IMG/VR virus record: IMGVR_UViG_3300032240_001633
Coordinates: 1 to 20,634 of that record
Reading direction: 5' to 3' (one strand)
DNA length: 20,634 nucleotides
Origin: a virus
The position numbers and the translations under genes were made by a program. The stretch's first letter is position 1. Every line of letters begins with the position of its first letter. The notes beneath the pieces are model-generated. The model saw only the letters and a list, made by a program, of their open reading frames with translations, was not told the DNA's origin and searched no databases. Of the stretch, positions 13,635-20,634 are shown piece by piece.

Positions 13635-15899
13635 TTGGAATTTCTGGACTTTATCACAAAACTCGCCCCTGCTGGCGAGACCGCACTTATTGTGCACCAA
13701 AAACCACAATTAAAAGACGGTCAAATACAACTGCACGCCGATGGCGCAGTCAAATGCACATGGCCAGCGCACCTACCGACCAAAGGCACTAAGGCTGGCC
13801 AAGCGTGGTACGCCAACACCGCCAGCTTTGTCGTTGACCGGTTCACCGATGGCCGCGTGTCAGCGTCCGCAGCCAACTGCGAGTACATCCTCGTCATGAT
13901 GCTGGACGACATCGGCACCAAGTCCAAGGTGCCGCCCATCGCCCCGACGTGGATTATGGAGACGTCGCCTGGCTCGTTTCAGTGGGGTTACGCCTTCAGC
14001 GACCAACCAACCAAAGCCGAGTTCAGCGCAGCCATCCGCGCCATCGCCGACGCGGGCTATACCGACCCTGGTGCCTGCAACCCCGTTCGCAACTTCCGGT
14101 TGCCTGGCTCGGTCAACCTGAAGCCCGAGCGCAACCTGTTTGAGTCGCGCTTGGTCGAGTTTCACCCAGACCGTGAGTTCACGCTGCCCGAAATATGCGG
14201 CGCGCTTGGTGTCACGCCCGTCGAAGCCGATTCGCTGACCCTGCGCCCGATCCGCTTGTCGGACGATGGTGCCGATGACGTGATGGCGTGGCTGTCCGAG
14301 CAGGGTCTGCTGCTGTCCCGACCCAATGGCGAGGGCTGGGCTGGCGTGATCTGCCCCAATAGTGCCGAGCATACCGACGGTAACCCCGAAGGCCGGTACA
14401 TGCCCGCCAACCGCGCATACTGCTGCCTGCATTCGCACTGCGTGGACTTTGATTCCCGCATGTTCTTGCAATGGGTGACCGACAACGATGGCCCTGCCCA
14501 CACGCCTGGTCTGCGTGAGGAGCTGCTGGCGCAGGCGATGAACTCTGCGCTGTCCAAGCTCACGCCGACCATTGAATACCCGAACGAAGCGGCCAAGATC
14601 GTGGCCGAGGTCGAGCGCAAAGAGCTTGGCCGCATTGAGAAGGCCGAGTGGTACGAGCGGTTCGCCTACGTCCAAGCAGATGATTGCTACTTCGACCTGA
14701 GCGACCGGCGTGAGATCGCCCGCAACACGTTTAACGCCCTGTTTCGGCATATAGATTGCAAGTCGATTCACAACAGCAAGCGTCGCATTGAGGCGTCGCA
14801 CTGCTTTGATGAGAACCGCCAAGCCAAGGGTGCCAAGTCGTTGGCAGGCATCACCTACGCCGCCGGTGCCACTATTCTGGTCGCCCGTGACGGCATGGTC
14901 TACGGCAACCGTTGGCGTGACGCCCGCCCAGCACCGAAAGCCGGTGACGTCAGCCTGTGGCTGGCGCACGTCGAGCGCATGGTGCCCGAGCCCTTCGAGC
15001 GTGAGCACCTACTGAACGCACTGGCGCACAAGGTGCAATTCCCTGCCCACAAGATCAACCACGCCATCCTGATGGGGGGTAATCATGGGTCGGGCAAGGA
15101 CACTTTGTTTGCGCCGTTTTTCTGGGCTATAGGTGGAGATGCTAAGGCCAACTGTTCGCTGGTCAAGAACGAGGACTTATCGTCTCAGTGGGGCTACGCG
15201 CTGGAATGCGAAGTCATGGAGATCGCCGAGCTACGCCAAGCAGAAGCCAAAGACCGCCGCGCGCTGGAGAATACGTTGAAGCCCATCATCGCCGCGCCGC
15301 CTGAGCTGCTGATGGTCAACCGTAAGGGTTTGCACCCGTACATGGCACTGAATCGGGTTTTCGTGATCGCATTTTCTAACGAGCGCGTGGCCATTTCACT
15401 GCCTAGCGAAGATCGCCGGTGGTTTGTGATCTGGTGCGCTGCCCCTAAACTAGCAGAGGCTCAGGCCGTCTCGTTATGGAATTTTTACCAGCACCGTGGC
15501 GGCTTTGAGGCTGTCGCCCATTACCTGCACACCCGTGACGTGTCCGACTGGAACCCGACCGCGCCGCCGCCAGTGACCGAAGCCAAACTGATCATGGTCG
15601 AGCATGGCATGAGCACCGCCGAGTCGTTTCTGGTTGACCAAATGCGCCGCCGTGTCGGTGAATTCTCCCGTGGTGTCGTTGCGTCCCCTTTTCACGGTGT
15701 CTGCGACCGTCTGCAAGGGTACGCGCCTGGGGGTGTCAAGATCGTGCAGGCCGCGTTATTACACGCGCTGAAGGAGGCTAACTGGATCGACTGCGGTCGT
15801 CTTAAGTCGTCACTGCACGACACTAAAAAACATATCTTTTGCGCCCCTGATCTGGCGAAGGCCACGAAATCAGAACTGCGAAATATGGTCGAGTCATAA
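13635..15899 (+). CDS. Primase-polymerase / SF3 helicase fusion (DUF5906/VirE-like)
   Basis: A 754-residue fusion. The N-terminal part resembles an AEP/RepB-type primase: ILVMMLDDIGTK (Asp91, Asp92), PTWIMETSPGSFQWGYA (104-120) and RNFRLPGSVNLK (152-163). A possible zinc-binding insert follows (Cys240, His246, Cys263/264, His266, His268, Cys269). The C-terminal part is a superfamily-3 ATPase of the DUF5906/VirE type: Walker A MGGNHGSGKDTLF (480-492), VMEIAELRQ (527-535) as Walker B-like acids, SNERV (581-585) and the arginine pair in SEDRRWFV (591-598). It would prime and unwind DNA for PolA upstream. The start is TTG at 13635 with GGAG (13624-13627) 7 nt before it. The gene looks more GC-rich than the virion genes at 1633-4937. 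Confidence 0.92.
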   Translation: MEFLDFITKLAPAGETALIVHQKPQLKDGQIQLHADGAVKCTWPAHLPTKGTKAGQAWYANTASFVVDRFTDGRVSASAANCEYILVMMLDDIGTKSKVPPIAPTWIMETSPGSFQWGYAFSDQPTKAEFSAAIRAIADAGYTDPGACNPVRNFRLPGSVNLKPERNLFESRLVEFHPDREFTLPEICGALGVTPVEADSLTLRPIRLSDDGADDVMAWLSEQGLLLSRPNGEGWAGVICPNSAEHTDGNPEGRYMPANRAYCCLHSHCVDFDSRMFLQWVTDNDGPAHTPGLREELLAQAMNSALSKLTPTIEYPNEAAKIVAEVERKELGRIEKAEWYERFAYVQADDCYFDLSDRREIARNTFNALFRHIDCKSIHNSKRRIEASHCFDENRQAKGAKSLAGITYAAGATILVARDGMVYGNRWRDARPAPKAGDVSLWLAHVERMVPEPFEREHLLNALAHKVQFPAHKINHAILMGGNHGSGKDTLFAPFFWAIGGDAKANCSLVKNEDLSSQWGYALECEVMEIAELRQAEAKDRRALENTLKPIIAAPPELLMVNRKGLHPYMALNRVFVIAFSNERVAISLPSEDRRWFVIWCAAPKLAEAQAVSLWNFYQHRGGFEAVAHYLHTRDVSDWNPTAPPPVTEAKLIMVEHGMSTAESFLVDQMRRRVGEFSRGVVASPFHGVCDRLQGYAPGGVKIVQAALLHALKEANWIDCGRLKSSLHDTKKHIFCAPDLAKATKSELRNMVES

Positions 15900-18130: not shown

Positions 18131-18200
18131 TGTAAAACAATCACTTACGATGTCGACTAAAAACCCTATGTAAAACAATTCCTTACAAATAGATGTAAGG
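18131..18200. repeat. 18-bp direct repeats plus an inverted repeat
   Basis: TGTAAAACAATCACTTAC (18131-18148) and TGTAAAACAATTCCTTAC (18169-18186) match at 16 of 18 positions and start 38 bp apart. The second is followed by an inverted repeat CCTTACA (18181-18187) / TGTAAGG (18194-18200) with a 6-nt loop. The ending CACTTAC in the first is the complement of GTAAGTG, the half-site seen in the 16-bp dyads further right. They look like protein-binding sites in front of the minus-strand operon. Confidence 0.65.
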
Positions 18201-18234: not shown

Positions 18235-18440
18235 TATGGACAAGGGAAAACAAGCGCGAATTGTCCATAAAAAAGCTATATACGGCCTGACTATTTTAGG
18301 GTTTATGGACAATATGGACAATAAAATAGGTATATATAAAGCAAACAAAAATAGTAATACTATATAGCTATACAGTAGGTTGAGGATCACGTTTAGCGAC
18401 CGACTTAAAATGCCTGTCCAAACTGTCCATAGTGTCCATA
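18235..18440. repeat. 9-bp iterons, TATGGACAA / TTGTCCATA, seven copies
   Basis: TATGGACAA stands at 18235-18243, as complement TTGTCCATA at 18261-18269, and twice head to tail without a gap at 18304-18312 and 18313-18321. Three more, in the opposite orientation and without gaps, are CTGTCCAAA (18414-18422), CTGTCCATA (18423-18431) and GTGTCCATA (18432-18440). The abutting 9-bp tandem blocks of two and three are typical of iterons or clustered initiator sites. The word is 7/9 identical to the DnaA box TTATCCACA, so degenerate DnaA sites are one reading. Confidence 0.75.
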
Positions 18441-18461
18441 AACTATAGTACTACATACTAA

Positions 18462-18589
18462 GTAAGTGACCACTAACATCACCAAGTTAGTGTGTACTCA
18501 CTTGTCAAATCTATATGTTAGTGGCCACTAACTTCCAGGTGTATGTAAGTGCTTACTAATTTAGGGCTTGTATGTAAGTGCTCACTAAC
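18462..18589. repeat. Five 16-bp dyad-symmetric sites in an array upstream of terminase
   Basis: Sites: GTAAGTGACCACTAAC (18462-18477), GTTAGTGTGTACTCAC (18486-18501), GTTAGTGGCCACTAAC (18517-18532, a perfect palindrome), GTAAGTGCTTACTAAT (18545-18560) and GTAAGTGCTCACTAAC (18574-18589). The shared shape is GTWAGTG-N2-CACTAAC. Centres are 24, 31, 28 and 29 bp apart, so most sites face a similar side of the helix at about three turns. They are likely sites for a dimeric DNA-binding protein: a repressor, an initiator or the terminase small subunit. The sequence shows the sites; their ligand is not known. Confidence 0.8.
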
Positions 18590-18591
18590 TT

Positions 18592-18637
18592 GAGGGGGAG
18601 GGGTAGGGCCCGCCGTCATGGCCCAACGGTGACGGAG
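18592..18637. other. GC-rich block with inverted repeat (candidate cos/pac element)
   Basis: A sharply GC-rich block follows the dyad array in otherwise AT-rich DNA. It contains GAGGGGGAGGGGTAGGGCCC and then CCGTCA (18613-18618) / TGACGG (18630-18635), an inverted repeat with 11 nt between the arms. GC-rich cut sites beside repeated terminase-binding sites and the terS gene are the arrangement of lambda-type cos regions. The order here (sites, GC-rich block, terS) fits, but no cut site can be shown from sequence alone. Confidence 0.35.
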
Positions 18638-18671
18638 GTTTCACAAACAATTTTTTTATTTTTTAAAATTG

Positions 18672-18708
18672 CCCACATGACCCACATGATTTACACTTGC
18701 GCACATGA
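18672..18708. repeat. CACATGA repeats running into the terS start
   Basis: CCCACATGA occurs twice without a gap (18672-18680, 18681-18689) and again as CGCACATGA (18700-18708). The ATG of the terminase small subunit (18705) lies in the last copy. No Shine-Dalgarno is visible before it, so the repeats may be binding sites that control terminase translation or start choice. Confidence 0.5.
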
Positions 18709-19154
18709 CGTTTCACAGCCTACCGTTTGAGCCGCGCAAGATCGTTGCGACCGAAGCGCGTCTGAACAAAATTTACGAAGCCGCCAAGCTGGGGCTCAAG
18801 GGCGACGCATTGGCCCTGGCTTCCGGCATGCTGCCGACCGAGTACCGGCAACTGTGCGAGTTAGACCCCGTTGCAGACATGGCAGCGCAAAAAGGCAAAG
18901 CCGACGGCGAACTGGAGATGTCGCTGTGTCTGCACAAGGCGGCCAAGGAAGGCGACGCCAAAGCGGCGCTGGCGATCCTGCAACACTCACACGGCTGGGT
19001 GGCCAAGCAGTCCATCAGCATAGATGTCGATCAGCGCATCAGCATCATCGGCGCGCTACGCCAAGCCGAGTCACGGGTCATTGATGTAATCGCCCATGAG
19101 CCAAGTCCTACGTTACAACCAAAGTTAAATGCAGAACACCATATACAGCGCTGA
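18705..19154 (+). CDS. terS: Terminase small subunit
   Basis: A 149-residue protein, directly upstream of and overlapping (26 nt) the large terminase gene. The N-terminal half has a helix-turn-helix-like run (YEAAKLGLKGDALALASGML, about 24-43) suited to DNA binding. The middle is charged and helical (EMSLCLHKAAKEGDAKAALA), followed by ILQHSHGWVAKQSISIDVDQ. Small terminase subunits recognise the packaging site and stimulate the large subunit. No ribosome site is seen at the ATG (18705), which lies in a CACATGA repeat; no better start exists in frame. The identification rests mostly on position and general shape, and is likely rather than certain. The repeat arrays upstream are natural candidates for its binding sites. 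Confidence 0.82.
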   Translation: MTFHSLPFEPRKIVATEARLNKIYEAAKLGLKGDALALASGMLPTEYRQLCELDPVADMAAQKGKADGELEMSLCLHKAAKEGDAKAALAILQHSHGWVAKQSISIDVDQRISIIGALRQAESRVIDVIAHEPSPTLQPKLNAEHHIQR

Positions 19155-20634
19155 AGACGAACAAGAACTTATGGCCAGGCTTTGGAGTCCGGCCATCAAG
19201 GACAACCCGCTGGCGTTTGTGATGTTTGCGTTTCCCTGGGGCGTCAAAGGTACGCCGCTGGAGAACTTCAGCGGCCCGCGCCGCTGGCAACGCGAAGTGC
19301 TGCTGGACATTGCGGAGCACATCCGACTCAACCAGAAAAAGCTAGACTTTGACGTGCTGCAAGAGGCAATATCGTCTGGCCGTGGTATTGGCAAGTCGGC
19401 GTTGGTCAGTTGGGTCACCATCTGGATGTTGGCGACAAGGATCGGCTCGACGACCATCATATCGGCCAACTCGGAGTCCCAGTTGAGGTCAATCACTTGG
19501 GCCGAAATCACAAAATGGCTGGCGATGTCGATCAACAGCCACTGGTTTGAGGTGTCAGCCACCCGAGTGATGCCCGCCAAGTGGCTGACCGAGCTGGTCG
19601 AGCGCGACTTGAAGAAGGGCACCAGGTACTGGGGCGTGGAAGGCAGGCTCTGGTCAGCGGAAAACCCTGATGCGTACGCGGGTGTGCACAATTTTGACGG
19701 TGTTTTGGTGATTTTTGACGAGGCAAGCGGTATTGACGACTCGATTTGGGCCGTTACTGGCGGTTTTTTCACAGAAAATACGCCAAATCGCTTCTGGCTG
19801 GCTTTTTCCAACCCGCGCCGCAACACTGGGTACTTTTACGAAGCGTTCAACAGCAAGCGGGAGTTCTGGAAAAGCCGCGTCGTGGACGCCAGAACGGTAG
19901 AAGGCACCGACAAACAGGTTTACGAGCGAATCATTGCCGAATATGGGCCGGACTCGGCGCAGGCGCACGTTGAGGTGTACGGCATGTTCCCCAACGCAGG
20001 CGATGACCAGTTCATCGGGGCTGACATTGTGGACGACGCCATGAAGCGGACGAAGTATCAGGATCAGTCAGCGCCGATAGTGATTGGGGTCGATCCGGCG
20101 CGATTTGGCGCGGACGCTACGGTCATCGCGGTGCGGCAGGGGCGCGATATTGTGAAGATCATGCGGCACAGGGGCGACGACACCATGACGGTGGTCGGTC
20201 ATGTGATCGAAGCGATTGACGAGTTCAAGCCGACGCTGGTGGTGATCGACGAAGGTGGCCTGGGTGCTGGCATCGTGGATCGGCTGAAGGAGCAGCGGTA
20301 CAAAATCAAAGGTGTGAATTTCGGGAATAAAGCAAAAAATCCGATCATGTACGGCAACATGAGGGCGCAGATGTGGGGAGACATGCGCGAGTGGCTCAAG
20401 ACGGCGAGCATTCCGAACGACAGGTTCTTGAAAACGGATTTGATTTCGCCTATGATGAAGCCTGACTCAAGAGGCACGATTTTCTTGGAGAGCAAAAAGG
20501 ACATGAAGTCGCGCGGGCTGGCGTCGCCTGACGCAGCAGACGCGATTGCTGTTACATTTGCATTTCCTGTAGCGCACCGCGAGTACACTGAACCAACGCG
20601 CCGGATAAACTCGCAGGGCAGCAGCGTATCAACA
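19129..20634 (+). CDS. terL: Terminase large subunit (3' end outside or at window edge)
   Basis: The frame from the ATG at 19129 is open to the last base, giving 502 residues without a stop; typical length is about 480-550, so little is missing. ATPase motor: Walker A ISSGRGIGKSALVSW (81-95; Lys89), Walker B GVLVIFDEAS (191-200; Asp197, Glu198) and the coupling motif FSNP (226-229). Nuclease domain, RNase H-like: VIGVDPARFGAD (Asp322), VVIDEGGLGAG (Asp374) and LASPDAADAIAV (Asp468, Asp471). It cuts concatemeric phage DNA and drives it into the prohead, with TerS. The start overlaps terS by 26 nt, and AAAG is the only weak ribosome site. The motor and nuclease motifs are complete and intact. 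Portal would be expected next, beyond the window. Confidence 0.95.
   Translation, partial: MQNTIYSAEDEQELMARLWSPAIKDNPLAFVMFAFPWGVKGTPLENFSGPRRWQREVLLDIAEHIRLNQKKLDFDVLQEAISSGRGIGKSALVSWVTIWMLATRIGSTTIISANSESQLRSITWAEITKWLAMSINSHWFEVSATRVMPAKWLTELVERDLKKGTRYWGVEGRLWSAENPDAYAGVHNFDGVLVIFDEASGIDDSIWAVTGGFFTENTPNRFWLAFSNPRRNTGYFYEAFNSKREFWKSRVVDARTVEGTDKQVYERIIAEYGPDSAQAHVEVYGMFPNAGDDQFIGADIVDDAMKRTKYQDQSAPIVIGVDPARFGADATVIAVRQGRDIVKIMRHRGDDTMTVVGHVIEAIDEFKPTLVVIDEGGLGAGIVDRLKEQRYKIKGVNFGNKAKNPIMYGNMRAQMWGDMREWLKTASIPNDRFLKTDLISPMMKPDSRGTIFLESKKDMKSRGLASPDAADAIAVTFAFPVAHREYTEPTRRINSQGSSVST

Follow-up and report, generated by a model that had tools for sequence, protein, structure and literature searches.

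The window, that is, the whole 20,634-nucleotide stretch of freshwater phage DNA analysed here (IMG/VR record IMGVR_UViG_3300032240_001633), carries five 16-bp dyads at positions 18462–18589, between leftward small early genes and the rightward terminase genes terS and terL. The features of the region, from left to right, are:

13635–15899, + strand: primase-helicase gene (DUF5906; PHROG 1156, PF19263)
18235–18322, − strand: 9-bp iterons TATGGACAA, at 18235 and twice in 18302–18322 (repeat families D8-D9, I1, I6 and I12)
18261: iteron in the opposite orientation, TTGTCCATA (repeat families)
18323–18375, no strand: A/T-rich core (79% AT), flanked by iteron clusters in inverted orientation, a candidate unwinding region
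18415–18443, + strand: direct 9-bp iterons TGTCCAAAC, TGTCCATAG and TGTCCATAA (repeat analysis)
18462–18477, no strand: dyad 1, GTAAGTGACCACTAAC
18486–18501, no strand: dyad 2, GTTAGTGTGTACTCAC
18517–18532, no strand: dyad 3, a perfect palindrome, GTTAGTGGCCACTAAC
18545–18560, no strand: dyad 4, the weakest, GTAAGTGCTTACTAAT
18574–18589, no strand: dyad 5, GTAAGTGCTCACTAAC
18590–18640, no strand: conserved G-rich stretch (31% AT)
18641–18709, + strand: conserved T/A tract, then 9-bp repeats GCCCACATGACCCACATGA up to the start of terS
18705–19154, + strand: terS, 149 aa (assigned by position and tblastn relatives)
19129–20634, + strand: terL, running off the window (PHROG 2, terminase large subunit, E 1.5e-39)

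The terS product had no PHROG or gathering-level Pfam match, and no Shine-Dalgarno sequence was evident before its ATG.

The initial annotation had reported five dyads with a common sequence and a regular spacing of about 28 bp. The positions, the palindromic nature of 18517–18532 and the centre distances (24, 31, 28 and 29 bp) were all reproduced, and the array is not a product of base composition: allowing up to three mismatches, 10 strand matches were found against 2.0 expected, a number reached in none of 100 dinucleotide shuffles. The proposed common sequence, GTWAGTG-N2-CACTAAC, is exact in three of the dyads and has two mismatches in the other two (18486 and 18545). A stricter pattern, GTDAGY-N4-RCTHAC, matches four of the five, and the full 20-bp form of the site described below is absent from the window. 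The regularity of the spacing is rough, the distances in relatives being mostly 23–25, 28–29 and 31–34 bp, which are not helical multiples. The CACTTAC at 18142–18148, taken earlier for an additional half-site, does occur, but as part of a different repeat (TGTAAAACAATCACTTAC and TGTAAAACAATTCCTTAC, at 18131 and 18169), and is not retained as a half-site in several relatives; its resemblance to the dyads is probably due to chance.

Scanning of viral contigs with TerS yielded 80 loci, 73 of which included upstream DNA. At least four dyads were found about 120–520 bp before terS in 66 of these 73 loci, whereas six had none and one had a single dyad, so that both the location of the array in front of the terminase genes and its conservation, for which a search of related phages had been proposed, are borne out. 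In near-complete genomes, the dyads are confined to this region; outside it, no genome has more than one weak site. The same dyads are retained in distant family members (TerS 54–67% identical); a closer clade (TerS about 78%) and the clade of MW202483 lack them, and some members of the latter carry other palindromes at the same place, such as TGTTTACGTAAACA. Relatives of MW202483 with such different dyad arrays (TGTTTACGTAAACA; TATAGTCATGACTATA) include L288, L296 (about −440 to −110 before terS) and L297. The array is also missing from relatives with near-identical core genes and is therefore not essential. Dyad 5 has a 20-bp extended form, GTAAGTAAGTGCTCACTAAC, in many relatives. The spacers between the palindromes flip orientation over evolution: L026 has the exact reverse complement of the stretch separating dyads 2 and 3 (18502–18516, TTGTCAAATCTATAT), and many relatives have this stretch reversed with a single change (ATATAAATTTGACAA). 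Close relatives were assigned to betaproteobacterial (Rhodoferax, Burkholderiales) and some gammaproteobacterial bins, assignments that can be wrong.

Across 103 distinct dyads, each conforming to GTNAG[T/C]-N4-[A/G]CTNAC, the arm consensus was G T (T>A,G) A G (T/C) (G/A), with N2 between the arms. An earlier arm-pairing test was biased by its score threshold, and sites chosen by pattern were used instead; among these, the arms displayed no base-pair covariation, and the inner positions paired less often than expected. This is the trace expected of a dimeric protein rather than of a hairpin, and the earlier suggestion of sites for a dimer is thus consistent with the arm statistics. The perfection of some palindromes, and the occurrence of an inter-dyad spacer in both orientations, might be taken to indicate a structural element, either a DNA cruciform or RNA hairpins, but the lack of compensatory changes in the varying arms and of any Rfam match makes such an element extremely improbable.

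The protein reading these sites was sought among the phage products. The position of the array directly upstream of terS, together with the P22-like portal and coat of the relative MW202483, would suit terminase small-subunit recognition sites (pac or cosB), one of three earlier readings. Nevertheless, the TerS proteins of L059, which has degenerate dyads, and L067, which has none, differ at about two residues, and the same arrays lie beside unrelated terminases. On these grounds of co-variation alone, TerS was rejected as the reader, and we consider pac or cosB sites very unlikely. Contig ends were scattered relative to terS, with no fixed cut at the array, a distribution consistent with permuted genomes.

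A gene-content screen of 21 near-complete genomes (nine with the array and twelve without; ORF families of at least 40 aa) identified no family present in all nine and absent from all twelve, although such a screen could overlook proteins that are very short or highly diverged. The best-tracking family (nine of nine with the array, three of twelve without) was, by eye, no DNA-binding candidate and was set aside. The operators of a phage repressor should be accompanied by a cognate regulator gene, and none followed the array in the 21 genomes. The shared core proteins were about as similar between the two groups of genomes as within them.

The array itself extends beyond this phage family. Of the 80 loci listed by a scan for pairs of adjacent dyads, 65 have this TerS or TerL, three more have its primase and polymerase, and twelve are in other phages. 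In L429, L444, L427, L519, L525, L530 and L448, recovered in two scans, the terminase genes downstream of the array belong to different families, and early genes often lie on its other side. An ORF resembling, by eye, a Hint domain or intein directly precedes terL in L444 (2097–3059), L530 (5152–6144) and L138 (5428–6399). Among cultured phages, Salmonella phages LPST10 and ZK22 and E. coli phages BEK6 and 2725-N35 each carry one perfect copy in a divergent intergenic region; phage Cyrano has two sites, one imperfect, beside its RepA gene, and Skatevirus relatives retain the site only partly. BLAST searches of phage records returned 30 with the array as query, five with the reversed-sequence control and three with the ideal 20-mer, the last of these numbers indicating that ideal sites are rare in cultured phages. 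As the array is common to unrelated phages, its reader is likely to be a host protein.

The surroundings of the array resemble a replication origin. Repeat clusters with a lag of 9 bp numbered 60 in 63 arrays, with no other lag exceeding four; the iterons are of type TGTCCATA in the window and TTGCCCACA in others, and inverted clusters flank the A/T stretch. Within 18235–18443 and 18664–18709, the iteron type switches between TGTCCATA, TTGCCCACA and ATGACCCACA among close relatives, the 9-bp period remaining constant, and the G-rich block and T/A tract (18590–18704) remain conserved in relatives with TerS identity as low as about 60%. A DnaA box, TTATCCACA, lies to the left of the array in three distant relatives (L119, L169 and L189). 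Given the inverted iterons around the A/T stretch and the DnaA boxes, the region is probably a replication origin, and the 9-bp iterons are likely to be initiator sites, with the primase-helicase (13635–15899) as a candidate reader. The GC skew reached its minimum near terS (within about 1.3 kb) in only six of 21 genomes. In L443 (8840–8920), DnaA boxes (TTATCCACA or its complement, with variants) lie beside dyads.

Lambda ori and P4 ori are iteron-type phage or plasmid origins, in which repeats likewise lie beside an A/T-rich stretch and replication genes. The dyads could accordingly be sites for a phage initiator, like the lambda O iterons, an earlier reading that gains from the iterons and DnaA boxes described above and from the origin-like regions adjoining the arrays or single copies of unrelated phages. 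Unlike the repeats of lambda- and P4-type origins, the dyads are absent from a number of close relatives, including those in which an equally similar primase-helicase (88–89% to that of the window) and the iterons are retained, and they are common to phages with no detected homologue of the window's primase or polymerase. Initiator sites would be expected wherever the initiator is conserved, and the dyads do not follow this rule. The origin-like character of the region thus stands, but the 9-bp iterons, which occur whether or not dyads are there, suit the role of initiator sites better, and we regard this function as improbable for the dyads.

The dyads resemble the chromosomal binding sites (SBS) of SlmA, the host nucleoid-occlusion factor, a bacterial protein that prevents cells from dividing across their DNA. 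The published consensus is GTGAGTACTCAC (PMC3116907), and SBS17, SBScons and SBS12 are published sites bound by a dimer of dimers (PMC4423959). The published 20-bp site consists of two GTNAGT-N4-ACTNAC 16-mers offset by 4 bp. Matches to GTDAGY-N4-RCTHAC numbered 4–12 per array (65 arrays), against 0.0008 expected per shuffled 620-bp region. Overlaps between 16-mers in these arrays had an offset of 4 bp in 90 cases and any other offset below 19 bp in none; the period-4 character of the pattern itself eases such an overlap, and the offset alone is therefore no proof. The 20-bp form was present in 54 of the 65 arrays, e.g. GTAAGTGAGCACTCACTAAC, which may be compared with SBScons, GTAAGTGAGCGCTCACTTAC. 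Palindromic GTNAGT half-sites, the consensus GTGAGTACTCAC and the 20-bp site are thus all found in the arrays; the window has the 16-mer form only. The first 11 bp of dyad 1 are one base away from E. coli SBS17, GTTAGTGACCA (PMC4423959), making this dyad a candidate SlmA-type single-dimer site. With a matrix built from the family, SBScons, SBS17 and SBS12 ranked above all others in a set of 28 regulator sites (p per 30-mer of 2e-5, 4e-5 and 3e-4, respectively), in which the SlmA sites alone were taken from published sequences. The same three sites ranked first of the 28 with a matrix built solely from unrelated phages. The E. coli chromosome has 24–52 SBS, scattered and mainly in coding regions (PMC3116907, PMC4423959). 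The phage arrays share with them the GTNAGT half-site, the 20-bp form with its 4-bp offset and the degenerate positions, but differ in that their 4–12 sites are clustered and intergenic, many of them being stand-alone 16-mers.

An SlmA orthologue was identified in 52 of 61 Burkholderiaceae genomes (44–52% identity), and the recognition helix, VSEAALYRHF, is the same in E. coli and the six Burkholderiaceae SlmA proteins examined, a family that may not be that of the window's host. No clear SlmA was found in a Rhodoferax MAG, which may be incomplete. The exact palindrome was found in none of 401 Burkholderiaceae genomes and, in a second host-genome scan, in three of 398. GTDAGT-N4-ACTHAC was not enriched in Burkholderiaceae chromosomes (27 matches vs about 63 for the reversed control). 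SBS-like 20-mers were only modestly in excess in ten SlmA-bearing genomes (24 vs 10), and five beta genomes showed no such excess (1 vs 1). These motif scans of chromosomes do not confirm the SlmA reading; they have low power, because published SBS, such as SBS12, are degenerate. A search of plasmids gave three weak matches.

Based on site architecture and distribution, we propose that the reader of the array is probably host SlmA. Taken as a whole, the array is best explained as a set of host SlmA sites beside a probable origin, at the divergence of early and late genes, an account to which we give slightly better than even chances. SlmA, a TetR-family protein, would bind as one dimer per 16-mer, with half-sites one helical turn apart, and two 16-mers offset by 4 bp would form the 20-bp site for a dimer of dimers. 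Of the three earlier readings, that of operators for an unspecified regulator comes closest to this proposal, with SlmA as the best candidate reader.

Control of the divergent early or terminase promoters, by SlmA or by a different TetR-like regulator of host or phage, is itself an alternative use of the sites. The array lies at the early/late divergence, in Skatevirus a TTGACG promoter-like element follows the dyad at a distance of about 35 bp, and SlmA activates Vibrio cholerae Pchb from 167 bp away (PMC5519180). One bacterial chromosomal copy (L557, about 1501; GCGTTAGTGGCCACTAACGC) adjoins a sequence encoding, as read by eye, an ArsR-type regulator, and a similar operator may thus serve ArsR-like proteins. 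However, five to ten sites of mixed spacing exceed the needs of an operator, sigma-70-like promoters occur in the region at chance level (promoter scan), and no phage regulator tracks the array; we therefore consider operators unlikely, less so than initiator sites.

Division block or shielding of the replicating phage DNA is ranked first as the most likely use of the array, followed by transcriptional use. SBS-bound SlmA shortens FtsZ polymers (PMC4423959), and a mild, about fourfold overproduction of SlmA was needed for division to be blocked by a multicopy plasmid bearing two SBS (PMC3573117, PMC4117426). By analogy, SlmA would bind the array, and the sites would come to outnumber the chromosomal SBS as the phage DNA replicates: with 5–10 sites per genome and tens of copies, they would exceed the 24–52 chromosomal sites of E. 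coli. SlmA-DNA complexes would then dissociate FtsZ polymers around the phage DNA, with the result that the host would not divide and the septum would stay clear of the replicating genome. Division block, considered on its own, is a reasonable possibility that falls somewhat short of even chances. Tethering to the membrane is less likely, because SBS DNA competes with membrane binding by SlmA (PMC7468209).

The laboratory pUC-2xSBS plasmids resemble the phage array in being multicopy, extra-chromosomal carriers of SBS; unlike it, they are artificial, and they block division in the presence of about fourfold SlmA (PMC3573117, PMC4117426). The phage FtsZ inhibitors lambda Kil, T7 Gp0.4, P1 Icd and T5 Hdi would have the same outcome as that proposed for the array, a block of host division, but, like all phage inhibitors of host division described in the literature searched, they act as proteins, whereas the array would recruit a host inhibitor through DNA sites. 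No report of phage-borne SlmA sites or of such arrays was found in the literature searched, and a literal sequence search of papers returned nothing relevant. SlmA sites as such are already known; their clustering in a phage-borne array would be a novel form of them, and division inhibition by DNA alone would likewise be novel.

We tentatively suggest, as a conjecture more doubtful than SlmA binding itself, that many unrelated phages of SlmA-bearing bacteria have arrays of SlmA sites at their origins that turn their own DNA into an inhibitor of FtsZ assembly, without a phage protein. If this is true, these phages would possess a purely DNA-encoded means of making a factor of the host cell cycle work against the cell that produces it or, alternatively, of protecting phage DNA from the septum. 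It would also explain the repeat found in many unrelated phages, and the array could mark phages of SlmA-bearing hosts.
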